A stretch of 38,098 nt of DNA from Cytophagia bacterium (GTDB lineage Bacteria > Bacteroidota > Bacteroidia > Cytophagales > Microscillaceae), in assembly GCA_004294005.1 (NCBI GenBank), contig RDZP01000011.1, positions 1 through 38,098 on the forward strand. The letters run 5' to 3'. Both the position numbers and the translations under genes were made by a program. This document shows positions 5,404 to 38,068 of the stretch, piece by piece. Below the pieces are notes generated by a model, which saw only the letters and a program-made list of their open reading frames with translations, did no database searches and had not been told where the DNA came from. Each line of letters opens with the position of its first letter. Within the stretch, counting starts at the first letter, position 1.

Positions 5404-5451
5404 AAGATTTTTGACTGATTATATATGTTATCTCGAAAAAAACATTTAAAT

Positions 5452-7332
5452 ATGAAAAAAAATATCTTACTTTCTCTGATTTTCTTTTTTTACTTTCAAC
5501 AAATATACATCAATGCACAAACAATAAATGGTTATGCACAGGTAACCAATATCAATGCAAGAGTAATTACATTAGGTGCTGTTGATGAAGCAAATGGTAC
5601 TTTTGAGAATGGAAATGATATTATTTTGATGCAAATGCAAGGTAATATCTTGGGTAACACCACCAATACAGCCAACTTTGGAGATATTTCGACCATTTCA
5701 TCAACAGGGATATATGAAGTCTGTACTATCTTATCGCAGACAGAAACAGCAGGTATACCCACAAGTATTACAGTAGTGAGTAATCTCAAAAACACCTATA
5801 CAATCAATTCAAATAGTTCCATACAGGTAATAACTTTTCCCAAATTGGGAAATCCAAACTTTACAACTACTTCTAATATGTCTGCAAAAAATTGGGATGG
5901 GACAACAGGTGGAGTAGTTGCTTTACAAGTTGCTGGTACTTTAACTTTGGCACACAATATTACCGCTAATGGAGCAGGTTTTAGAGGAGGTAATCGTTCT
6001 AATAATTTTTATCCTGGTGGAACAACTTGTGATGCCGCTTCTTTTATTGTTACTTCTAATCATACAAATAATGGACAAAAAGGAGAAAGTATTTATAAAA
6101 CATCAAATAATGATTATCTATATGCAAGAGGCAAAATTTTGAATGGCGGCGGCGGCGGAAATGCACTTGTTAATGGCGGTGGTGGTGGCGGCGGGAATTA
6201 TACTGCAGGTGGGCAGGGTGGACGAGGTTGGAATGCTACAGCAAGCGGTTGTAGCCCTTCTATTAGCGGTTTAGGAGGAATGGCGTTAGGAACATACATA
6301 AGTGGTAGCCGAGTATTTATGGGTGGTGGCGGAGGAGGAGGACAACAAAATGACACACAAGGGACTAATGGTGGTAATGGTGGTGGGATTATATTGCTGA
6401 AAGCAAATAGAGTTGTTACAACAGGTACTTGTAGGATTAACATCAGTGCTAATGGAAACTCAGTCCCAAATGGAAATAACGACGGACAAGGTGGAGGTGG
6501 TGCAGGTGGTTCAGTGGTAGTACAAGTAGCTTCTTGGGCAGTTGTTTCAAGTTGTCCAATTACAGTGGCAGCCAATGGAGGTAATGGTGGATCTGTCAAT
6601 AGTGATATACATGGTGGTGGTGGTGGTGGTGGACAAGGATTGATTATGTATTCTTTGGCTGTACCTACTGCTAATACAATCAATCAAACCAATAATGGAG
6701 TAGGGGGGTGTGATAATACGGCTTGTACTTTTCGAGGAAGTAATGGGAGTGGAACAAGTGGAAGCGGTTTGATTGGAAACACCTCTACTAATTTACCTAT
6801 TACATTGGTTTATTTTAATGTATCACCACAAAAAAAAGACGCTTTGGTAAAATGGGGAGTAGCTAACCAACTCAATAACCAATTTTTTGAAATAGAGAGG
6901 TCAAAAGATGCAATCAATTGGGCAAAGATAATAACCTTAGACGGTGCAGGCACTACTTCACAATATTTAGAATATCAATATTTGGATAAAAATACTTTGA
7001 GAGGGACTTCTTATTATAGATTAAAACAAATTGATTTTAATGGTGAATTTTCTTATTCTTCTATTGTTGCTATTAATATCAAAGACGAAATAAATATCTA
7101 TCCTAATCCTGCTAAAGATTTTGTAAACATAACAATAGATGATAATTCAAAACCTTATTATATCAAAATTATTGATAATGTAGGAAAAGAATGCACCATA
7201 AAAGAAGTACAAAAACAAGATAATATATTGACTATCAATATCAATCATTTGCCTAATGGTATTTATTATGTTCAATGGATAAGTGATGCAACAATTACAA
7301 CTAAAAAAATGGTTGTAATGAATGAGAATTAA
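5452..7332 (+). CDS. glycine-rich secreted protein with T9SS type A sorting domain
   Basis: This 626-aa precursor begins with a signal peptide (residues 1-23, ending YINAQ), continues with a region very rich in glycine and asparagine (about 220-430, with runs of four to eight Gly), and ends with a T9SS sorting domain (INIYPNPAKDF near residue 546, then the NGIYYVQW and KKMVV strands). A segment starting PITLVYFNVSPQKKDALVKW, before the sorting domain, is the linker usual in such cargo. It should cross the outer membrane by type IX secretion and be released or anchored at the surface. The Gly-rich part suggests an adhesin or matrix role, which is inference. The MKKN start is chosen because the signal peptide begins there; an ATG nine codons earlier adds only basic residues. 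Confidence 0.88.
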   Translation: MKKNILLSLIFFFYFQQIYINAQTINGYAQVTNINARVITLGAVDEANGTFENGNDIILMQMQGNILGNTTNTANFGDISTISSTGIYEVCTILSQTETAGIPTSITVVSNLKNTYTINSNSSIQVITFPKLGNPNFTTTSNMSAKNWDGTTGGVVALQVAGTLTLAHNITANGAGFRGGNRSNNFYPGGTTCDAASFIVTSNHTNNGQKGESIYKTSNNDYLYARGKILNGGGGGNALVNGGGGGGGNYTAGGQGGRGWNATASGCSPSISGLGGMALGTYISGSRVFMGGGGGGGQQNDTQGTNGGNGGGIILLKANRVVTTGTCRINISANGNSVPNGNNDGQGGGGAGGSVVVQVASWAVVSSCPITVAANGGNGGSVNSDIHGGGGGGGQGLIMYSLAVPTANTINQTNNGVGGCDNTACTFRGSNGSGTSGSGLIGNTSTNLPITLVYFNVSPQKKDALVKWGVANQLNNQFFEIERSKDAINWAKIITLDGAGTTSQYLEYQYLDKNTLRGTSYYRLKQIDFNGEFSYSSIVAINIKDEINIYPNPAKDFVNITIDDNSKPYYIKIIDNVGKECTIKEVQKQDNILTININHLPNGIYYVQWISDATITTKKMVVMNEN

Positions 7333-10703: not shown

Positions 10704-13700
10704 TTAATTTTCTTTGACAAATCTTTTAGTAAAAGATGCTTTACCCGTCTGAATTTTAAGCGCATAAACACCTGTTGATAATCCTTTCAAATCTAATTCA
10801 TAACGACCAAATTGTGTGAGTTTGATAGTATCAAAATCTTTTATCAAACTGCCTTTCATATCATACATCATTATTTTTAATTTGGTTGTACTTACTGCAC
10901 CTTCAAGGTTAATCAATATTTTTTCATCGGAAGATGATAAAAGAGGATTAGGATACAAAAGTACTTGGGTTTCTGTTGGAGTTTTAGCATCTTTTAGACT
11001 GATACTAAAAGTAGCAGCATTTGACTCAGCATTCTGACTATCAACAGCAGAAAATTGAAATAAATCGTCTAATTCTGTATTTCTATTGTTTGGATAATAA
11101 GCAATTCTATTATTTAACAAATCATCTCTCGAAAAAATTTGATTAACTGCCATATTTACGCCATTCAATTTTAAAGTCCCAGATGAAGTTAATGACCTTA
11201 ATTTGAACCTAAGATTATAACCTGGTAATAGTGCATCTTCAGGGTCATCACCTTTCATCATTTCATTCTCAATGACATAAGATTCGATGTCTTGTGGATA
11301 ACTCATTAGGTTACTATTGATAGCGGTTGGTGCAGAATTACAACCATTTTCATCAGCCACCGTAAATGTAAAAGAATTAGTTATTGTTCCTATACTATTT
11401 GTAGCAGCTATTGTAAAAGAAATACTATTACCAATTGTAGCTGCTGCTGTTGCTTTTACATTCAAATTCACTATTCCATTACTACTAATAGTGGCTTGGT
11501 CTAATACAGCCGTAATTCCCGCAGGCATTACAGCAGGAGAAGTAATAGAAAGATTGATAGGACTATTACAACCACTCACACCCGAAAGAGTAATCACATG
11601 GTTTTTTCCTATTGGGTTTAATCTACAAACACTATTAGTGCTAGCAGAACTCATAGTAAATTGCGAAGGAATTACTGATTGAATTGTAAAATTTGTATTT
11701 GAAATATCAAAAAAGAAATTACCAACTGCTTCCACTCTTATTCTTGCTTGCGAAGTATTGATATTGGGTACGGTTATATCAGCACTTCCATCATTAGGCG
11801 TGCTTGCCAATAAAGTAGTAGGATAAGTGAAACCACCATCAGTAGAAAGTAAAATTTTTACATTCGCACAATTGATACTGTTTGCCGTTGTTCCTGCTAC
11901 ATTCCAAGTAACGGTTTGTGTGCTACAACCTTGCCAATTCACTGATGTATTAGGGACAATAACAGCAAAAGCCTGCCCTGTATTGACTACTTCTACCAAA
12001 TAAGCACCATATCTCACACCTGAAACATTTTTATTATCCCTTACTGTAACTCTAAAAGTCATATTACGACTTGTAGCAGGGAGAGATTCTCCCATTACCG
12101 TTGTATTATTAACAAGGTTAGATAGTCTTGGAAATGTTCTTATCGGATTAGTAGTAGGTACAAAAGAACGAAATATAGGTCCTGTGAATGCTGTGGTAAG
12201 TGTTCCTGCAGGCGTAGGATCACTTGCCACTCCTAAATCAAATTGTTCCCAACAATACGTCAATACATCTCCTGCATCTGCATCAGTTGCATCTGCTCCC
12301 AAGAAAAATGGCGTGCTTGCAGGAATTTTAAAACCTGAAGGTGGAATATTTAAACCTGATATTCTGTTTAAGTTAATAGTTGGAATATTATTGACTACCC
12401 CAGTAGGAACTATGCAATTTCTTGCTTCGATAACATCTAAAATCTCATCATAATTTTTTGTGTGAAAATAAGCAGGATTATTATCTGTATTGTTTTGTAA
12501 ATTATTCACAGCACCACAAATGCCTGCATACGCCATAATTGTGCTACCACTACCTGGCTCATAAGCCGCATTAGATTCTCTTGTTCCATTGCTACAAGTA
12601 CCTTGTCCACCTGTAATACTATTAAAGGTATGATTTCCTCCAAATTGATGACCAATCTCATGAGCAACATAATCAATATCGAATGGGTCACCTGTTGGGT
12701 TGCTAAGACCCGTTACACCACCATATTTAGTGTTAGTACACAAAGAGCCTCGATAAGCAACACCACCACCACCAGTGCTAAAAACGTGTCCTATGTCATA
12801 ATTATTAAAACCTATTAGACCACCACCACCTGATCTGCCTAATACATCTCCGTTTTCTTCTAACATATCTCCACCATCATCATTAGTGTAAGGGTCAGTA
12901 GCACCATTGGTATATACCACAGCCGCATTATTGACCAATGTAAAACTACAAGCTACTTCTTTTTCATATACACCTCTTACCCTATTGATACTTGTAACAA
13001 TCGCATTTTGGGCTGATGCCACAGTGCCACCTCTTACTTGTGTGTACTCACCCGTTGCTGCTACTACTAATCTATAAGTACGTAATTGTGAGCCTGAAGG
13101 TCTAAAAGAAATGTTACCATTGGCACCATCTTTTTCACGTGGAGCGTCATTTTTTTTATCTTTTTTATCGTGTTGATGGTCTTTGTCTGTTTCTTTGTAA
13201 CCACAAGATTTTGTTTGATTTATTTTTTCTTGAGAAGGTTTATAATCTTTTTTATAATAAACCACATAATAACTGGTTTCTCCAAAACTATAAGGGTCAA
13301 TAAAAATAGTACCATTGACTGCACTCAAAACCATTGCATGAAAGCCATGAGGTGTGTAATCCATTACCAAAGTGGCAGTTTTATCATCAATACCATAACC
13401 TGAAAATGTTTTGATGTCAGGGCGAGCAGCCGCAAAATCAACACTTAATAAAGGTGATTCTACAATTTTAAATCGTTGAGAAGTACCATCAGGCATAGGT
13501 AAATCAAAAACAAAAGAAGAAGTAGGCGCATCAGAAGATAGTCCTTTGGGTGCAGTATTCAAGTATTGTTTTAATGAAGAGAAATCAACTTGAATGGTTT
13601 GGTATTTTTGAGGCACGATTTCACGTTTGCCTATGTATTTAATTTGTCGTTCGTCTTTTATCTCGCTCCAATATTTATTTTGGGCTTTTGCAATAGGAGA

Positions 13701-13742
13701 GAAAAATAAAAAGGCAATTAAAAAGTAAAAAATATTTTTCAT
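10704..13742 (-). CDS. T9SS-secreted metzincin (reprolysin-like) metalloprotease
   Basis: The 1012-aa precursor has a signal peptide (1-21, ending IAKAQ) and a propeptide-like N-terminal region to about 200. The catalytic domain has the zinc motif HEIGHQFGGNH near residue 360 and the Met-turn STIMAYAG near 399, which together define a metzincin of the M12B/reprolysin-like kind. Glu in HE is the general base. Beta-sandwich (Ig/cadherin-like) repeats follow (about 420-900), then a T9SS type A sorting domain (VLLYPNPLL near 930; STGVYALKIQT). It should act outside the cell on proteins. An ATG 42 nt upstream sits on the -7 box, so MKNIFYF is the start. Confidence 0.93.
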   Translation of the reverse strand: MKNIFYFLIAFLFFSPIAKAQNKYWSEIKDERQIKYIGKREIVPQKYQTIQVDFSSLKQYLNTAPKGLSSDAPTSSFVFDLPMPDGTSQRFKIVESPLLSVDFAAARPDIKTFSGYGIDDKTATLVMDYTPHGFHAMVLSAVNGTIFIDPYSFGETSYYVVYYKKDYKPSQEKINQTKSCGYKETDKDHQHDKKDKKNDAPREKDGANGNISFRPSGSQLRTYRLVVAATGEYTQVRGGTVASAQNAIVTSINRVRGVYEKEVACSFTLVNNAAVVYTNGATDPYTNDDGGDMLEENGDVLGRSGGGGLIGFNNYDIGHVFSTGGGGVAYRGSLCTNTKYGGVTGLSNPTGDPFDIDYVAHEIGHQFGGNHTFNSITGGQGTCSNGTRESNAAYEPGSGSTIMAYAGICGAVNNLQNNTDNNPAYFHTKNYDEILDVIEARNCIVPTGVVNNIPTINLNRISGLNIPPSGFKIPASTPFFLGADATDADAGDVLTYCWEQFDLGVASDPTPAGTLTTAFTGPIFRSFVPTTNPIRTFPRLSNLVNNTTVMGESLPATSRNMTFRVTVRDNKNVSGVRYGAYLVEVVNTGQAFAVIVPNTSVNWQGCSTQTVTWNVAGTTANSINCANVKILLSTDGGFTYPTTLLASTPNDGSADITVPNINTSQARIRVEAVGNFFFDISNTNFTIQSVIPSQFTMSSASTNSVCRLNPIGKNHVITLSGVSGCNSPINLSITSPAVMPAGITAVLDQATISSNGIVNLNVKATAAATIGNSISFTIAATNSIGTITNSFTFTVADENGCNSAPTAINSNLMSYPQDIESYVIENEMMKGDDPEDALLPGYNLRFKLRSLTSSGTLKLNGVNMAVNQIFSRDDLLNNRIAYYPNNRNTELDDLFQFSAVDSQNAESNAATFSISLKDAKTPTETQVLLYPNPLLSSSDEKILINLEGAVSTTKLKIMMYDMKGSLIKDFDTIKLTQFGRYELDLKGLSTGVYALKIQTGKASFTKRFVKEN

Positions 13743-13781
13743 AAAAGAATGTTTTTTTTTAGTTATTTTAAAAATTTTACA

Positions 13782-13812
13782 CAAATATAGTCTAAAAAAA
13801 TAAAATTACAAA
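13782..13812 (-). promoter_or_regulatory. promoter of the metalloprotease gene
   Basis: Minus strand: TTTG (13809-13812), 19-nt spacer, TATATTTG (13782-13789), 40 nt before the ATG at 13742. Confidence 0.7.
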
Positions 13813-13968: not shown

Positions 13969-16900
13969 ATGACAGATTTATTTATTTATTCAAAGCAACC
14001 ATTCAAAAAATTTATTGGGCTTTGTTGTTTTCTTTTTTTATTTGCTTTTGTTACATCTGCTCAAAATGCAATAGTTGGGACTGGTTTCTCGTCAGGATGG
14101 GGAGGTGGAAGTTGTCCTACAGGTAATTTAAATTTTAAGCCTATGGCTGCCAACATAAGTACAACTTATAGCGTAACTTCACAAGCAAATGGTACAGGTA
14201 ATCAATTTTGGCGATTTGGTATTGATTGGAGTACAACAACTGCACAGAGAACAAATAACATTGGTAGTGATGTAGATGTAGTAGTAGGCACTAAATACAC
14301 ATTAAATAGTAGTTGTACTACAAGTGGGAGCTTGAGATATAACGTGCCAAACGCTTCTTACAACTATGTTTTTAAAACATTAGATGCTGGTACTAATCCA
14401 ACGGGTGCTTGGGTGTTTTTTGAGGTACAAGGAGATGTGCGAACGGTACTTACAGTAAATCAAAGTTTATCTGTTGTGTATAGAAATCAAAGTCCTGTGA
14501 TTACTGCTAATTTATCAGGTAATCTTAATACAGGTCAAAGTGTTTATCTTCGTTACACAACCAATACTTTTCCAACTTCATCAACAGTAGTAGAAATGTC
14601 AGGAACTGGGTTAACAAGAACGGCTAATATTCCTGCTTTTTCAGGTGGAACCAATGTACAATATTATATTTTCACATCAGGGAGTGGATTACAAACTTAC
14701 TTGGCAGCCAATCCAACTGATTCTGATCTTTATACAATTAATCATAATAATAATGGAGGCTCAAATTATTCATACACCGTAAATAATAGTATCGTAAGTA
14801 CTACAGATGGGAACTGGTCAGACGCAAGTATATGGGTTGGCGGCGTTGTACCTATATCTACTGATAATGTGACTATCGCCAACAACGTAACCCTCAATCA
14901 AAATGCTTCTGTTTCGAATATAACTATTAATGTAGGTAGAACACTTACAAGTCAAGCATCAAGTGCAAGGGTATTGACTGTATCAGGTGTTTTTACTAAC
15001 AATGGTACTCCAGGTTCATCTTTTATTGCCAATGATGGAAAGGTTGTGTTTGCAGCAGGTAGTTCGATTTCAGGTAGTGACATAGGATTTAATAATGTAG
15101 ATGTAAATGCAATTAACATGAATTTTAGTAACCAAAATGTATATGGAGTCTTGACCATTAATACAGGAGGAAGTATATCAAATGCTCCTATTTATGGTGC
15201 TGCTTCTACTTTGGCTTATAGTACTGGTTTATATACAGTAGGTAATGAATGGAGTCAAAATGAAACATCAGGTGTAGGAATTCCTAATGATGTTCTTATC
15301 AATGCAGGTAGTATTAATTTTGGTGCAACAACACAATTTAGATATTTGAGTGGTAATCTAACAATAAGTGGTAGCACATCACTCACCTTATCAAGTAATT
15401 CAGGTGGAGATTTAAGAATTGAAGGTAACTTTACTAATAATGGTACTTTTAATGCAAATGGAAGAGCTGTATTTTTTGTAGGAAGTGGTGCAGACCAAAC
15501 TATTACAGGAGTAACGACTTTTCCATTTATGATTATTGATAAAGTAAACAGCAATGTTGTTTTGAATGATAATATTTCTGTAAGCAATACAATGACACTT
15601 ACAAATGGTGGTTTAGATTTGAACGGAAAAAACCTAACTTTTTCTGGAAGTAGTATTGTCTTTGATGGTACAGCTACTAAATCTATTACAAGTACCACCG
15701 CCTCAATTTTTGATATAAACACTTCTAATACTGCTATTACTCGTTCCACAGGTTCGAATAAAATTGCCTTTGGTTCGAATATAACACTTAGAACGAACAG
15801 AGGAGTAAATTTTGGTAGTGGTTTGACAGACATCAATGGGATTTTTCAAATAGAATCAGGTGGTTTTGCGAACACCAATACACCTAATTATCAATCAGGT
15901 TCTACATTGCGTTATAACTCAGGAACGGTTTATGGTAGAAGTGTAGAATGGAGTACAAACTCACCTTTTAATGTTGAATTGGCAAATAACACTACGTTAG
16001 ATTTGGGTGCAAATGGTGGTACAGGAACTGCAAGGACAGTAGTCAACACATTGACAGTAGGCTTAGGAAGTACTTTTTCAATGAATCAGGCAGGTAATCA
16101 AATGACCGCTACACTTACTGTAGGGAGTTTAGTTAATAATGGTACATTTTTGATGTCAGGTGTTGCTACTAATAATAATGATTTAGTTTGTCAAGGAAAT
16201 ATTACAAATACTGGAACATTTACTACAAATAATCAAAATATCAGTATTCAAGGAAACTGGACAAATGATGGAACATTCAACGCAGGCATAGACCCCAATG
16301 CTTTTGATATGATTACATTCGCAAGAGTAAGTTTTAATAATGCTGCAACTTTACAAACCATAGGTGGTTTATCTACAACTAATTTTTATGATTTAACAGT
16401 CAATAAAACAGCAGGAAAAGTAAGATTGCTTCGAAATATTGGTGTTACATTCTTAGTAAATATGTTAGCCCTTGCTAACGTTGCATTATTAGATTTGAAT
16501 GGTAATAATATTGATTGTGGTTCAACAGGCAATGTTGTAGAAAGTCCTTCACTTGCTCAAAGTTATGTTACAGATGAATCAGCAGCTGGCGAATCAGCGA
16601 GAGGTGGTGCAATTATTATGTCAGGAAGAACAATCAATACAGGTGCTACGGTAATAGGAGGGATTAGTTTAGCACGTACAGCGGGAACTGATTATACAGT
16701 AACTGTTACACGCAGGCATTACAGAGGTGCAGGAATAGGTTTAAAAAGAATATTTCAAGTCGATGTTACATCTGGCAATGCATCAGGCACAAATACAACA
16801 GTAGTTTATGGTTATTCTGATGGGGATTTATCAGGCTTGACAGAAAGTACATTGTTACAAGGAAAATGGAGTACAGGCATTGGCTGGGTTACTTATCCTG

Positions 16901-17553
16901 CGGGTATGGGTGCTTTAGAAAGTAACTTAAATGTAACTAATAATACTATCACTGTTTTAGGTTATGATTCGTTTTCATCTGTTACAGGTACATCTTCTAA
17001 TAATGCAGCACTACCCGTATCCCTCACAAAATTTGAAGGACAATCTATCAACAAAACGCAAGCAAGATTAACTTGGCAGACGGCTACCGAAATCAACAAC
17101 AAACAATTTGAAGTTGAAAAAAGTATTGATGGAGTAAGTTTTGAAAAAATCGCTACTATTGATGGCAATGGCAATTCGAGTGTTATTAGAAATTATCAAA
17201 CAATAGATAATAATTTTATAGCAAGTGCGTATTATCGTTTGCGTCAAATAGATTTTAATGGTACGGAAAGTATGAGCCAAGTGATATTTATCAAAAATAA
17301 CAATGATAAAATATTGGTTTATCCTAATCCAACAAGTGGTGAAATTTTTATTCAAAGCAATGAAAACAAACAAAGTAATCTAAATTGGAAATTGATTGAT
17401 GCACAAGGAAAAGTAATTTTAAATGGCAATGATACTTTAGAAAATGTTGAAAAAGCATTAAGCAATCAATTAAGAAATCAAAATAAAGGTATGTATATGA
17501 TTGAAATTCAAGGAAGTAAAGAAATTTATCGCCAAAAATTAGTCGTAGAATAA
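13969..17553 (+). CDS. large beta-rich secreted protein with T9SS type A sorting domain
   Basis: The 1194-aa precursor starts with a signal peptide (about 1-31, ending VTSAQ). A first domain (to about 270) is followed by the segment DGNWSDASIWVGGVVP, typical of repetitive surface proteins of Bacteroidota. A long Asn/Thr/Ser-rich beta-helix-like region comes next, with recurring NNGTF / NTGTF / NDGTF turns (about residues 345, 490, 725, 750 and 770). The end holds the PVSLTKFEGQSINKTQARLTW linker and a sorting domain (ILVYPNPTSGEIF near 1115; NKGMYMIEIQG). This points to export by T9SS and a surface or extracellular adhesin-like role; no enzyme motif is visible. A strong terminator follows. 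Confidence 0.87.
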   Translation: MTDLFIYSKQPFKKFIGLCCFLFLFAFVTSAQNAIVGTGFSSGWGGGSCPTGNLNFKPMAANISTTYSVTSQANGTGNQFWRFGIDWSTTTAQRTNNIGSDVDVVVGTKYTLNSSCTTSGSLRYNVPNASYNYVFKTLDAGTNPTGAWVFFEVQGDVRTVLTVNQSLSVVYRNQSPVITANLSGNLNTGQSVYLRYTTNTFPTSSTVVEMSGTGLTRTANIPAFSGGTNVQYYIFTSGSGLQTYLAANPTDSDLYTINHNNNGGSNYSYTVNNSIVSTTDGNWSDASIWVGGVVPISTDNVTIANNVTLNQNASVSNITINVGRTLTSQASSARVLTVSGVFTNNGTPGSSFIANDGKVVFAAGSSISGSDIGFNNVDVNAINMNFSNQNVYGVLTINTGGSISNAPIYGAASTLAYSTGLYTVGNEWSQNETSGVGIPNDVLINAGSINFGATTQFRYLSGNLTISGSTSLTLSSNSGGDLRIEGNFTNNGTFNANGRAVFFVGSGADQTITGVTTFPFMIIDKVNSNVVLNDNISVSNTMTLTNGGLDLNGKNLTFSGSSIVFDGTATKSITSTTASIFDINTSNTAITRSTGSNKIAFGSNITLRTNRGVNFGSGLTDINGIFQIESGGFANTNTPNYQSGSTLRYNSGTVYGRSVEWSTNSPFNVELANNTTLDLGANGGTGTARTVVNTLTVGLGSTFSMNQAGNQMTATLTVGSLVNNGTFLMSGVATNNNDLVCQGNITNTGTFTTNNQNISIQGNWTNDGTFNAGIDPNAFDMITFARVSFNNAATLQTIGGLSTTNFYDLTVNKTAGKVRLLRNIGVTFLVNMLALANVALLDLNGNNIDCGSTGNVVESPSLAQSYVTDESAAGESARGGAIIMSGRTINTGATVIGGISLARTAGTDYTVTVTRRHYRGAGIGLKRIFQVDVTSGNASGTNTTVVYGYSDGDLSGLTESTLLQGKWSTGIGWVTYPAGMGALESNLNVTNNTITVLGYDSFSSVTGTSSNNAALPVSLTKFEGQSINKTQARLTWQTATEINNKQFEVEKSIDGVSFEKIATIDGNGNSSVIRNYQTIDNNFIASAYYRLRQIDFNGTESMSQVIFIKNNNDKILVYPNPTSGEIFIQSNENKQSNLNWKLIDAQGKVILNGNDTLENVEKALSNQLRNQNKGMYMIEIQGSKEIYRQKLVVE

Positions 17554-32684: not shown

Positions 32685-35456
32685 ATGCTCACAAAATTAG
32701 CCATATTTAATTCAGAAAAATATGCCAAAGTTATCATTAAACTTGATGATGTTTCAAGTGTTCAGGCTTTGGGTTCAAACGGAGTAGGAAAAACAAGCCT
32801 CATAGGTATTCTAAATTTCTTGTATATTGTGGGAAGTGATATGATATTTCCTACAGGAAAAGAGGGGAATTTTTATGATTATAAAAAAAGTGTTCATTAT
32901 TACTTCCCAACTCCTAATCAAAGTTTTATTGTTTTTGAGTGCCTTAAAAACAAGGCAAATGGTTATTTTTGTATTTTGGTAAAAAGAAAAAATACTGAAG
33001 ATGATGTAGAATATTTCAAAATTGATAAACCTTTTAACGAAAATGATTATATTGATACAGCAAGCGGTTTAAAAAAATTTGATGATATAAGAAAAGATTT
33101 TACACTTCATAATGTTATTGAGCCTTTGAAAGATAAAAGTGATTTTTTTCAATGGGTATATAGTAAAGACACCAACAGAAATGCTTTTTTGTGGGTAAAT
33201 GAAAAAGTAAAACGCAAAGGTCAATCCTTAGAAAATAGTCTTACCAAAATCTATCGTTTTTTGCTCAATGCAAATGCTATTAATGACATCGCATTGCGTG
33301 AAGCATTGATTATTGCTGATAATCGTCAAGGCAGACCTTTAGACGTTTTTTCAAGCAAAAGCAGAATTGAAACTATTGAAGATCTAAAAAAACAAAGTGC
33401 TTATATTATTAAATTAGATGCTCTCAAAAAGGAATTTGAGGATTTTAAATTATTGGTAAATACTACGGAAAGTAAGAAAAAATTAGTTACAGAATATCTA
33501 TATAGTTTTGACGAATTGCTTAAAAGAGAACTTGAAAGCCTAAAATTACAAATTGAGCAAACAAAAACGCAAATTAATTTATATAAAGAAGAAGAAAGTA
33601 TCATTAAACCCAAGCAAACAGAATTAGCCAAAGAAATAGGCAGTTTAAATACAAATATTGGTAATTTGCAAAAAGAAAAAATAATTCCAAAGGAAGAAAT
33701 TTTAAAAGAAATCAATAAGATTTTACGAGAAGCAAACCCACTTCATACTACTGTAGAAACCTTGACAGACTTTTTGGAAACACAACAAAATTCCTATCAA
33801 AAACAATTTAACGAAGTTTCAGCCACTTTGCAGTCTATTACACAGTACAACACTACTCAAAAGGAAACAGAAAATAAAATTAAATCATTCACAGAAAAAC
33901 AAACACAATTACAAAATAAAATAAGCAAATTTCAGGATTTGCTTATTCATAATATTTCTGAAAATAAGGAAGTTAGAGAAAAACTAAATGCGTTTTTTTC
34001 GCAAGAAGTAATTGCTACATTTACCAAAAATGATATTGTCCATAAAATACAATCTTTTGAAAATATTTTGACTATCAACGAGGGTAAAATAGAAGGTTTG
34101 GATAAAATAAAGCCTAAACCCTTAGAAAATATTGTAGAACTAAACGAGCAGTTAGAAACTGTTGAAAAAGATTTGAAACAACAAAAAGATATTTTAGACA
34201 CGATTAAAAATAGGACTGAAAAAGAAAAAGAAAAAAATAAGTTTGAAAATGAAATAAAAACTATTGAGGCTAAAATCAACAAAATTAGCCAAAAAGATAG
34301 TATAGAAAATGAACTTGCTCAACTCAGAAATGAATTAGAAAAATTTAAAAAAGACCTTACTGAAAAAGAGCAAAAGCACGGAAAAATATCAGAAGAACTT
34401 ACAAAACTTGATAACTTAATTAGACAAGAAGAACGAAAAAAAGAAGGTGCAGAGAATAAAATTAAAACATACCAAAATGAATGGTATCCTGAATTTGAAG
34501 AGGACATTAAGAATTTACTATTTCAAAAAATAGAAATAGTAGAAACATCTTCTATTGAAGAATTAAGAAGAAAACTTAGAAGTGAAAAAAGTAAATTAAA
34601 AGGTTTGCTTTCCGACAAACAAACTAAATTTTCAGAATTGCAAAGAATAACAGAAAATTATACAGCCAACGAAATAGATTTTATTTCCCAAATTGGGCAA
34701 GATATATTTACCTTAAAAGACAAGGAAAAAAGCATTGAAATACTCTTAGAACAAGTTTCTAATGACATTACAGTTCCTATTAAAACCTTTTTAGATGCTT
34801 ATAAGCATTTTAAAGGTTTTATAACAAAATTTAATGGATATATTTCAAAGTTTAATATTTCTTCGTACACGAATCTAGCCATAATTATAAACGAAAATGG
34901 CACAATAAACAAAGATTTAGAGAAAATGGCTAACATTATAAGTGTTGCTGACTTTAAAGCAGATTTGTTTAATAGCCTAAATAGCAGTGAGCAAAAAGAA
35001 TATTTAAAGATTTTAGAAAGTTATATAGAACGAAAAGTTAAAGTAGATTTCAAATCTCTTTTTGATATTTCTTTATCAGCAAAAGAGAATAACGAAACTA
35101 TTAAAATAAACCTAAATACAGGCGAAGGGGCAAGTACAGGCACTTATAAAATGATTATTCTTATTCTTTTCTTATCTGTAATCAGTTATTTTAAAGTAGA
35201 AGATGAGGAAAATAAATTGATTTTTCCCATAGATGAGGACACTATTTCAGACGATAATTTGGATACTTTACTTGCATTTTGCAAAGAAAAAGGGTTTATC
35301 TGTATTTTTGCTTCCAAGAAACAAATTACAGGTGTTGAAAAATTTTATATATTTAAAGACTTTGTTAGAATAGGCACTAAGGATAAACTTATGGTTACAG
35401 AAATTCACGCTAAATTAGCCCAAAAGAAAAAAAATGATGACAATAACGGATTATAA
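32685..35456 (+). CDS. SMC-like ATPase of a Wadjet-type system (JetC/MksB-like)
   Basis: The 923-aa protein has an N-terminal ATPase half with Walker A GSNGVGKTS (30-38), a very long Lys/Glu/Gln-rich coiled coil (about 230-720), and a C-terminal ATPase half with a signature-like GEGASTGT (813-820) and Walker B LIFPIDE (845-851), followed by an IFASKK switch segment. This is SMC/MukB architecture; in Wadjet, JetC dimers extrude DNA loops to sense small circular DNA. It is shorter than usual JetC (about 1,100 aa), mainly in the coil. It is the first gene of four that overlap: the next gene starts 23 nt before this one stops. By sequence alone an unrelated Rad50/RecN-like ATPase is possible; the neighbours decide. 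Confidence 0.8.
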   Translation: MLTKLAIFNSEKYAKVIIKLDDVSSVQALGSNGVGKTSLIGILNFLYIVGSDMIFPTGKEGNFYDYKKSVHYYFPTPNQSFIVFECLKNKANGYFCILVKRKNTEDDVEYFKIDKPFNENDYIDTASGLKKFDDIRKDFTLHNVIEPLKDKSDFFQWVYSKDTNRNAFLWVNEKVKRKGQSLENSLTKIYRFLLNANAINDIALREALIIADNRQGRPLDVFSSKSRIETIEDLKKQSAYIIKLDALKKEFEDFKLLVNTTESKKKLVTEYLYSFDELLKRELESLKLQIEQTKTQINLYKEEESIIKPKQTELAKEIGSLNTNIGNLQKEKIIPKEEILKEINKILREANPLHTTVETLTDFLETQQNSYQKQFNEVSATLQSITQYNTTQKETENKIKSFTEKQTQLQNKISKFQDLLIHNISENKEVREKLNAFFSQEVIATFTKNDIVHKIQSFENILTINEGKIEGLDKIKPKPLENIVELNEQLETVEKDLKQQKDILDTIKNRTEKEKEKNKFENEIKTIEAKINKISQKDSIENELAQLRNELEKFKKDLTEKEQKHGKISEELTKLDNLIRQEERKKEGAENKIKTYQNEWYPEFEEDIKNLLFQKIEIVETSSIEELRRKLRSEKSKLKGLLSDKQTKFSELQRITENYTANEIDFISQIGQDIFTLKDKEKSIEILLEQVSNDITVPIKTFLDAYKHFKGFITKFNGYISKFNISSYTNLAIIINENGTINKDLEKMANIISVADFKADLFNSLNSSEQKEYLKILESYIERKVKVDFKSLFDISLSAKENNETIKINLNTGEGASTGTYKMIILILFLSVISYFKVEDEENKLIFPIDEDTISDDNLDTLLAFCKEKGFICIFASKKQITGVEKFYIFKDFVRIGTKDKLMVTEIHAKLAQKKKNDDNNGL

Positions 35457-36249
35457 TTTCTTGCAAAAACTCAAGACAGAAAAAATTAGTTGTTCAGTTG
35501 TGCCTGTAACAGTTAAAAATTCTGTTTATTTTCAAAATTTGTTAAGCACAAATGTTATTCTTTTAGAAGGTAATTGGAAACGAGGTTCAATAAAATTGAA
35601 TGAAAATGAAAAAGATTATTTTAATACTTTTTTGAAAAATAATTTTCCAAGTGAAATAACCCAACAAATAGATAGAGCAACTAATATTAAATCACTTCGG
35701 AATAGCAAAAGCAGAAAAACAGAAAGTAATATTATTGTATTTTTACGTGGAAATCAACAAATAAAAATCAATGGAATTGAAGTAGATTTGGCACTTCACA
35801 CACATAATTTTGGGCTTTTTTCTACAGTTTTAGAAAGTTTAGTTTGTGATAAAATTTGTTTTGTGGAAAATTTGTATAGTTTCTTAAATGTAGAAAAACT
35901 AATTACAGACGATTATATTTTTGTGCATACTTACGGTAGATTAGGCGAGAAATTATTAGATAAAATACAAACAAATGAAGTTTTAGTTTTTTCAGATTAT
36001 GATTTTGTAGGGTTGAATGAATATTTAAAATTTAAAGAAAAGTTTACAAAAACAACCTTTTTTGTGCCTGAAAATTATCATTTTCTTTTTCAAACATATA
36101 GCAGACCTTTGAAAGACACCCAAAAAGAAACTTCACAAAAACCATCAGAAAGAGTACAAAACTCTACTGATGAAGTAGCCATAAAAATACGAAATCAAAT
36201 ATTTGAAACGCAACATTTTTTAGAACAAGAAATTTTGACAAGTTTATGA
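35434..36249 (+). CDS. Toprim-domain protein, JetD/MksG-like nuclease
   Basis: The 271-aa protein ends in a DUF2220-like Toprim fold: E145 in CFVENLYSFL, a Gly turn in YGRLGEKLL (167-175), and the acidic pair D188/D190 in VFSDYDFVGLNEYL, then the C-terminal HFLEQEIL (261-268). This Glu, DxD and LEQE order is that of JetD, the topoisomerase-VI-like nuclease that cuts plasmid DNA in Wadjet. The N-terminal part (about 1-115) is shorter than in known JetD (about 400 aa in total). The start codon overlaps the jetC-like gene by 23 nt; a second ATG follows directly, so either may be used. The next gene overlaps its stop as ATGA. Confidence 0.72.
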   Translation: MMTITDYNFLQKLKTEKISCSVVPVTVKNSVYFQNLLSTNVILLEGNWKRGSIKLNENEKDYFNTFLKNNFPSEITQQIDRATNIKSLRNSKSRKTESNIIVFLRGNQQIKINGIEVDLALHTHNFGLFSTVLESLVCDKICFVENLYSFLNVEKLITDDYIFVHTYGRLGEKLLDKIQTNEVLVFSDYDFVGLNEYLKFKEKFTKTTFFVPENYHFLFQTYSRPLKDTQKETSQKPSERVQNSTDEVAIKIRNQIFETQHFLEQEILTSL

Positions 36250-37478
36250 GGGCAAGTGGACAAACAATAGTCAATTATTTTGCAGAAAACTTTGCTTTTT
36301 TAGAAGAATTATTCAATTTTTCTAAAAAAGATAATTTTTTCATTGATAATGAAGTACTAATTAACCGTTGTATTGCTAAAAATATAAATGTTAAAAAATT
36401 AGAGGAATATAAAATAGCCAAACCCTTAGCAGGTGGAAATTATGAATTGAATAAAAGATTTACTGATTTTATTGCGTTTTTGATAGATGATTTTCGTTTA
36501 GATCTGCCTGAAAGTATCAAAAAATATCAAAATTCCATTGAAGAAATTTATGCACAAATTACCTTAGATAATCTTACTTTAAACAGGCAAAAAACAACTA
36601 ATCAAATCATAGAATTAAGCAATGGTTTGATGAATGAAATACAAGAATTTGGTTTGCAAATAGAGGCAAATACTAATCAACTTTTTGTAGAAACTACAAA
36701 AATATCCGAAAATAAAAACAAACTTGATTATGCAGGTAGAATAAGCAAAGCAACTTATTTGATAGAAAACTATATCAAACCTTTGAATGATATTTTGAGT
36801 AAAGAGCATAGCAATTCATTTATTAAACAGTTAGGGCGTATTAGTGATTTTGCTAATTTACAAAGGCACGAACAAACAGACATAGGTTTGAATAGTCAAT
36901 TTCAAAGACTTTATCAACGTATTTTGAATATTAGTGAGAATATTCTCAAAAATTCGTCCATTATGGCAAAAGATGTTACGCCTTTAATAGACCGTTTAAG
37001 AACTGAAAATGAAATAATGAAAGGCATTGAAACTTTTTTACTTAACGCCAAACGAGGAAAAATTGAGCAAAAAGTTTGCTTATCAGAATTGAAAAGTAGG
37101 CATAAGACATACGCAAAAAATTTTGAATTAAGTGCTAAAAATATACTTGAAATGTTGAAAAAACAAGAGCCTATAAATTTTGATAATAATCAAGTTATCA
37201 AACAACAAGATTTATGGGTTTTTGATAAAGAAACATATAAAGAAAAGTTATTACAAGACTTACCTATTAACAATTTTTTTAATTGGTGTTATCAAACCTT
37301 AGATAACGAAGACAAAGAAAATATTAACAGCGAAAAATTTTATTATATTTCCTCTCTATTGTTTGAGAAAGAAATACAAGAAGAGTTTTTGCTTGCTGAC
37401 AAGTTTGAAATAGATTTAACAGACTATATTTTGAAAGTTCCACATATTAAAATCAATCTTGCAAAAAATGAAAATTGA
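36246..37478 (+). CDS. MukF/JetA-like kleisin subunit (probable)
   Basis: This 410-aa, almost wholly alpha-helical protein has a winged-helix-like start (about 1-105: FLEELFNFSKKDNFFIDNE, then YELNKRFTDFIAFLIDDFR), a middle helical bundle (about 110-330, with DYAGRISKATYLIENYIKPLN) and a compact C-terminal part (about 340-405). That order suits MukF/JetA kleisins, which bridge the two SMC heads. No enzymatic motif is seen. Sequence support alone is modest; size, fold type and place between the JetD-like and MukE-like genes carry the call. Its ATG overlaps the previous stop by four bases. Confidence 0.6.
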   Translation: MRASGQTIVNYFAENFAFLEELFNFSKKDNFFIDNEVLINRCIAKNINVKKLEEYKIAKPLAGGNYELNKRFTDFIAFLIDDFRLDLPESIKKYQNSIEEIYAQITLDNLTLNRQKTTNQIIELSNGLMNEIQEFGLQIEANTNQLFVETTKISENKNKLDYAGRISKATYLIENYIKPLNDILSKEHSNSFIKQLGRISDFANLQRHEQTDIGLNSQFQRLYQRILNISENILKNSSIMAKDVTPLIDRLRTENEIMKGIETFLLNAKRGKIEQKVCLSELKSRHKTYAKNFELSAKNILEMLKKQEPINFDNNQVIKQQDLWVFDKETYKEKLLQDLPINNFFNWCYQTLDNEDKENINSEKFYYISSLLFEKEIQEEFLLADKFEIDLTDYILKVPHIKINLAKNEN

Positions 37479-38001
37479 TTATCCTGCACAGCACCAACAA
37501 ATAGTAAACGACCTTCTGGAAGGCAAATTTTTGCTTTATACAGATTTTCAAAAATTTCAATCATTGAAAGACAATGACAATTTTTATACTGATTTTTTCA
37601 AAAAAAGTTTTGGTTATGAACTCAGAATAAGAAACGAATTTGCTTACTTGATTTCAGATAAAACAGACGAAAAAATATCGCGAAATTTTACTATCTTTTT
37701 GGCTATTTTGTGCTACGAAATTAACCAAAAAACAACGGATTTTAAAAACCGAATAGAAAATGATATATTTTCGTATCAAGAAACTGAAAATTATCTAAAA
37801 AGTAAAAATTTTGAAGAAGTTGTAAATGAAATTGGTATAGACAATTTGAGTAGTTTTCTAAGAACATTAGCCAAAAGAAATATTATTGAGTTTATGAGTA
37901 AAAATGAAGATAACTTTAAATTTACCAGAGCAATAAACTTGTTTTTTGAATTTGCTATAGACTTATCGAAACAAGAAGCAGAAAATAAAAACGAGCCATA
38001 A
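37468..38001 (+). CDS. MukE/JetB-like subunit
   Basis: The 177-aa protein has the MukE/JetB (DUF4194) pattern: VNDLLEGKFLLYTDFQKF (about 11-28), FFKKSFGYELRIRNEFAYLIS (about 42-62), SRNFTIFLAILCYEI (about 70-84), and a C-terminal winged helix (LSSFLRTLAKRNIIEFM, then FKFTRAINLFFEFAI). MukE-like proteins clamp the kleisin and DNA near the SMC heads. The ATG at 37468 is preferred over an in-frame TTG three codons upstream; it overlaps the kleisin-like gene by 11 nt. A terminator follows, so it is the last gene. Confidence 0.68.
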   Translation: MKIDYPAQHQQIVNDLLEGKFLLYTDFQKFQSLKDNDNFYTDFFKKSFGYELRIRNEFAYLISDKTDEKISRNFTIFLAILCYEINQKTTDFKNRIENDIFSYQETENYLKSKNFEEVVNEIGIDNLSSFLRTLAKRNIIEFMSKNEDNFKFTRAINLFFEFAIDLSKQEAENKNEP

Positions 38002-38032: not shown

Positions 38033-38068
38033 AAGGTGGCACAAGGCTTGCTTCGTGCTACTTTTTTT
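38033..38068 (+). terminator. terminator of the condensin-like operon
   Basis: GTGGCAC (about 38036-38042) pairs with GTGCTAC (one G-T pair) over a 12-nt loop, followed by T8. It lies about 32 nt after the last stop. Confidence 0.8.

Follow-up and report, generated by a model that had tools for sequence, protein, structure and literature searches.

Does the four-gene operon at the end of a contig from a Cytophagia bacterium encode a machine that restricts plasmids, and is its order of genes an accident of one genome or the mark of a lineage? The window that we analysed is the entire contig (G000:C169, 38098 nt), and the operon occupies positions 32685-38001. Its genes, here called C, D, A and B in their order of reading, lie co-directionally on the plus strand and overlap by exactly 23, 4 and 11 nt. 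A sequence-only reading of the window had listed these open reading frames (ORFs), and its frames, protein lengths and overlaps proved exact on recheck (Table 1). By analogy with studied systems, the operon very probably encodes an SMC-nuclease system of the Wadjet/MksBEFG kind, both compact and complete, that restricts small circular DNA.

The first gene product carries the parts of an ATPase at the two ends of the chain, as the sequence-only reading had it: a Walker A motif (GSNGVGKT, residue 30), an ATP-binding cassette signature (STGT, residue 817) and a Walker B motif (FPIDED, with DE at residues 850-851). Searching the PDB by sequence with profiles of all four proteins yielded chance matches only, and folds were therefore used instead. 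The AlphaFold2 (AF2) model of C, a check which that reading had proposed, displays an N-head, a short coiled-coil arm, a central region, a return arm and a C-head; in this low-confidence monomer model the central region, at about 415-510, is small and hinge-like. Foldseek ranks 1-11 were all MukB or JetC (JetC of types I and II), with top E values of 3e-11 to 4e-8. Motifs and model together identify C as a MukB/JetC-type SMC ATPase. No zinc-hook CxxC was present in 18 of 18 C proteins checked. Rad50/SbcC was considered and ruled out, there being neither a zinc hook nor an Mre11 partner in the operon.

D harbors the Toprim residues in the motifs FVEN (E145), SDYD (D188, D190) and FLEQE (E264), which align with those of Mks and type I nucleases and are retained in relatives. 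In Corynebacterium glutamicum MksG, the E236A and D279A mutations drastically impaired nuclease activity (PMC10123090). The JetD_C Pfam model matches the window D at 0.0058, below the cut-off, but 14 of 18 members of the D family match it, one of them (L030) above the cut-off, and hhalign of the D profile against Mks D gives 6e-15. The JetD motif set announced from the letters is thus present, and D is, as judged from its sequence, a JetD/MksG-type Toprim nuclease with intact catalytic residues.

The two remaining subunits were likewise borne out. B matches the Pfam family PF21980 (MksE) with an E value of 3.9e-19 and 70 bits against a cut-off of 27; by this match it is MksE, a KITE protein, in agreement with the predicted MukE-like protein. 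An IFDR-type JetD-docking motif was not seen in ten compact B proteins checked, although this absence is not decisive. A, predicted to be a MukF-like helical protein, gave an AF2 model with a mean predicted local distance difference test score (pLDDT) of 76, comprising an N-terminal winged helix, a long helical bundle, a disordered linker (273-321) and a C-terminal winged helix. Foldseek ranks 1-3 were MukF, MukF and JetA, and VIA-align also put MukF on top (Z 13.6, covering residues 1-405 with 7nz2). Unrelated helical bundles reach a Z of 12.8, little below MukF, so the full-length layout is better evidence than the Z score. A models as a kleisin of the MukF/JetA layout.

Together, sequence and models establish the predicted subunits, the catalytic residues and the operon coupling; loop extrusion, circle sensing and cutting we infer from studied Wadjets. 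C dimers, the kleisin A and the KITE protein B would together make up a DNA loop extruder driven by ATP. Faced with a small circular molecule such as a plasmid, the extruder would reel in the whole circle and then stall, and the D Toprim dimer of the stalled complex would make a double-strand cut, while a long chromosome would never yield the stalled state. Short arms need not block such a mechanism, because plasmid is still cut by ecJET from which the whole elbow-to-hinge segment has been removed, although this form cannot pass obstacles (PMC12647877). It is very improbable that the operon is a decayed or passenger copy without current activity. Two relatives (L020 and L028) have indeed lost the first Walker A glycine, whereas in the window all four frames are open, the overlaps are conserved and all motifs are intact. 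The altered motifs of these two loci, which are sisters on the trees, read AENNVGKS and ADSNVGKS, with GKS retained.

We asked how often this arrangement recurs. Scanning about 85,000 species genomes with an alignment of D returned 17 loci, and a scan of genomes of the same order added two more distinct ones, giving 20 with the window; the count is a floor, as the scan used peptide patterns and sought loci through D, so that relatives with another D may escape. All 20 distinct loci have the order C-D-A-B, and since it recurs in 19 loci besides the window, the four-gene arrangement is not due to chance. Nineteen of the loci belong to Bacteroidota, where a search for the order had been advised; the other (L030) lies on a Campylobacterales metagenome-assembled contig. 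This sole outside member sits on a long branch and reflects either transfer or mis-binning. Nearly all gene junctions overlap, mostly by 1-23 nt. C measures 880-929 aa across the loci (that of L015 is truncated by the contig end) and D 263-271 aa. Catalytic motifs are retained across the clade, supporting its reading as a nuclease system.

Phylogeny of the ATPase heads, also proposed beforehand, places C-D-A-B in a single clade with 94% support in the Shimodaira-Hasegawa-like approximate likelihood ratio test (SH-aLRT), away from type I, type II and MukB. Nearest to it is a pair of short-SMC operons with the order A-B-C-D (L063 and L064; 87% SH-aLRT), followed by Bacteroidota Mks. The D tree recovers the clade at 85%, its sister group not being resolved, and the two trees agree on most groupings inside. 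C-D-A-B is thus a rare inherited Bacteroidota branch and not a one-off rearrangement, distinguished by SMC length together with gene order. A natural supposition is that the SMC became short before the gene order changed, with the qualification that the root was not inferred and that L063 and L064 are two loci only. The sequence-only reading had suggested a divergent branch among SMC systems that restrict plasmids, which agrees with the identities of all four subunits. It was right about the order but called it permuted, whereas it is a fixed trait of a 20-locus clade.

The branch is patchily distributed. Among 341 genomes belonging to the order, 7 carry it; it was not found in the two congeners of the window's host or in 12 further family members. 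Two operons (L028 and L093, from Algoriphagus and its genus) occupy the same spot beside topA; the adjoining topA genes are 94% identical, while the C proteins are only about 32% alike, and that of L093 is 66% identical to C proteins of Flavobacteriaceae. Six relatives of these hosts (L107-L112) have no such operon at that spot. In Algoriphagus and its genus, the flank of topA serves as a site of exchange for unlike compact operons, and the pattern looks like the exchange of an accessory defence cassette. The cassette travels as a unit, given that the clade appears on both the SMC-head and the D tree, with most groupings inside it shared. Its C-D-A-B order and its short SMC arms mark it out as a clade that moves horizontally. 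At this site, each of the two operons is preceded by a gene for a ~1400-aa protein of unknown family (54% alike), which lies elsewhere in other species, and four relatives have a sirtuin-like gene near the site.

This distribution bears on whether the operon might serve the chromosome instead. MukBEF and MksBEF are condensins, and the fold and subunits described here are MukBEF-like, so that an accessory chromosome-organising condensin, its D serving in repair or decatenation, could be imagined. We consider this improbable: D is always present with its catalytic residues intact, the operon is patchily distributed and exchanged at a site, and the window's genome also carries ScpA. The operon is for the latter reason probably not the genome's only condensin.

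An action mainly on phages, or on phages and plasmids, through sensing of replicating or circularised phage DNA is unlikely, though less so than a condensin role. Some relatives have restriction enzymes of the Eco57I type or a protein with a SIR2 domain as neighbours, as in defence islands, and both phages and plasmids are targets of Lamassu, which is likewise an SMC-like system (PMC10586767). LmuB also matches C, most strongly in L021 (8e-9), but these matches are weak and largely within the coiled coil, and the subunit set of kleisin, KITE and Toprim protein is that of Wadjet rather than LmuA/LmuC. Identity with Lamassu itself was ruled out, as LmuA is lacking and the partners are a kleisin, a KITE protein and JetD. 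In two relatives, a restriction-methylase of the Eco57I type, with DUF7149 and DUF7814, lies downstream of the operon (L016:10692-14471 and L017:11513-14947). Relatives searched for by C and by D in viral contigs were not found.

Several observations count against a plasmid-restricting system of this kind. The N-head of the C model has low confidence, and A has no significant sequence match beyond its own kin, its fold alone supporting the kleisin call. No D relative was found in plasmid and phage records, and the branch therefore has no direct tie to mobile elements. Furthermore, the draft genome of the window, which is 80% complete, yielded no full smc gene.

Table 1. Features of the operon and its 3' flank in the window.
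Feature	Position	Strand	Product	Basis
C, SMC/MukB/JetC-type ATPase (predicted)	32685..35456	+	923 aa	motifs, AF2 model, profile match
D, compact JetD/MksG-like Toprim nuclease (predicted)	35434..36249	+	271 aa	Toprim residues, JetD_C, profile match
A, kleisin of MukF/JetA layout (predicted)	36246..37478	+	410 aa	AF2 model, Foldseek, VIA-align
B, KITE subunit, MksE/MukE-like (predicted)	37468..38001	+	177 aa from ATG	Pfam PF21980
B, alternative start TTG	37459	+	180 aa	ORF list
Possible intrinsic terminator, hairpin then T8, just 3' of operon (tentative)	38033..38068	+		sequence and RNA fold

The contig ends 97 nt 3' of the operon. The terminator call within this flank is tentative because a consensus scanner lists the hairpin for the minus strand only. 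Upstream of the operon lie genes for an AI-2E transporter and a sodium:solute symporter, and two more that, from our own reading of the ORFs, we take to be hisG and a sirtuin gene. No defence gene was recognised among the genes upstream of the operon in the window. Elsewhere the window encodes three large proteins that carry Por secretion tails (5425-7332, 10704-13784 and 13969-17553), one of them a reprolysin-like metallopeptidase.

A literature search found no description of this branch, the founding Wadjet and Mks papers lying outside that search. The branch, its gene order and its span from Walker A to signature (about 757 residues, compared with about 970 for type I) are new. Recent work reports that in Wadjet-I DNA is extruded by the SMC heads and proximal arms, the stretch from elbow to hinge serving only to bypass obstacles, and that channel-less hinges tend to accompany longer arms, a few Wadjet-III cases aside (PMC12647877). 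The clade's SMC is the shortest of its kind among the systems compared, and it was shortened by evolution and not by deletion, which makes it a direct natural test of ideas on SMC arms and hinges. Its short arms give a clear prediction by analogy with truncated ecJET, and the catalogue of Wadjets gains a branch missed by the PADLOC models. A bolder and tentative proposal is that the clade constitutes a separate Wadjet/Mks type, whose members would be plasmid nucleases that extrude loops with naturally minimised SMC arms and perhaps have a small hinge without a channel. If so, the proposed rule pairing channel-less hinges with long arms would be broken, and nature would have supplied in this clade an extrusion core that bypasses obstacles poorly or by another route.

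Among named systems, MukBEF is ruled out by the Toprim subunit in the operon; it lacks such a subunit and has long arms (a span of 1332 residues in E. coli MukB, compared with 787 in the window C). The PADLOC 2023 models of Wadjet types I-III do not recognise the operon: A has no match, B matches JetB2 at 8e-4 over 53 residues, C matches in the coil only, and D matches JetD1 partially (8e-5). Types II and III follow the same subunit logic as the operon. Two type II-like operons (L062 and L068) are distant from the clade on both trees. Type III was compared by PADLOC models only, the JetC3 models (1068-1473 aa) matching the C coil alone with E values of 0.003 or worse; a PADLOC JetD3 search for type III references gave nothing in 296 genomes of the phylum and nothing in controls either.

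MksBEFG and Wadjet type I likewise combine SMC, kleisin, KITE protein and Toprim nuclease in a single operon, and share with the window operon the MukF/JetA and MukB/JetC folds and the Toprim residues. Their order differs. The usual A-B-C-D order, correctly stated in the sequence-only reading, is that of type I, of published mksFEBG (PMC10123090) and of all fully readable operons among the other Bacteroidota Mks/Wadjet loci fetched (L011, L061-L074, L094-L100). Type I C proteins measure 1124-1137 aa, so that the ATPase is shortened as claimed. The same claim for the nuclease holds against type I (about 380-397 aa) but not against ordinary Bacteroidota Mks, where D already has 282-293 aa; a short D is therefore not peculiar to the branch. 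The Walker A-to-signature span has a median of 757 residues in C-D-A-B, as opposed to 793 in compact A-B-C-D operons, 923 in type II, 970 in type I and 1087 in Mks. In place of the type I signature SGGQ/E the clade has SxGT, a form common to Bacteroidota Mks (L011, L061, L094-L100) and the compact clade; MukB has STGE. In one family of the phylum, f37 (L065, L066 and other genomes), a type I-like operon may be carried almost as a core trait, this family giving most MksE matches of our phylum survey. The survey evidently passes over some true members, and its counts are floors, as it missed the window's own B despite the 70 bits that B scores by hmmscan.

Bacteroidota Mks (L011, L094-L100) resembles the clade in its MksE-type B, short D (a DUF7281 nuclease of about 285 aa) and signature, and its C matches the clade's profile at 6.5e-19. 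It differs in its order and in a DUF3584 SMC of about 1214-1228 aa, about 300 aa longer; DUF3584 (PF12128) has no match in the window C, versus 9e-66 in L011, and the kleisins have no detectable likeness (hhalign probability 3.9%). The closest counterparts are L063 and L064 (family f55, Bacteroidota), with SMC proteins nearly as short (939-962 aa) and profile matches in all four subunits (C 2e-44, D 1e-21, A 2.6e-10, B 9e-6), which differ from the window clade in having the normal A-B-C-D order.
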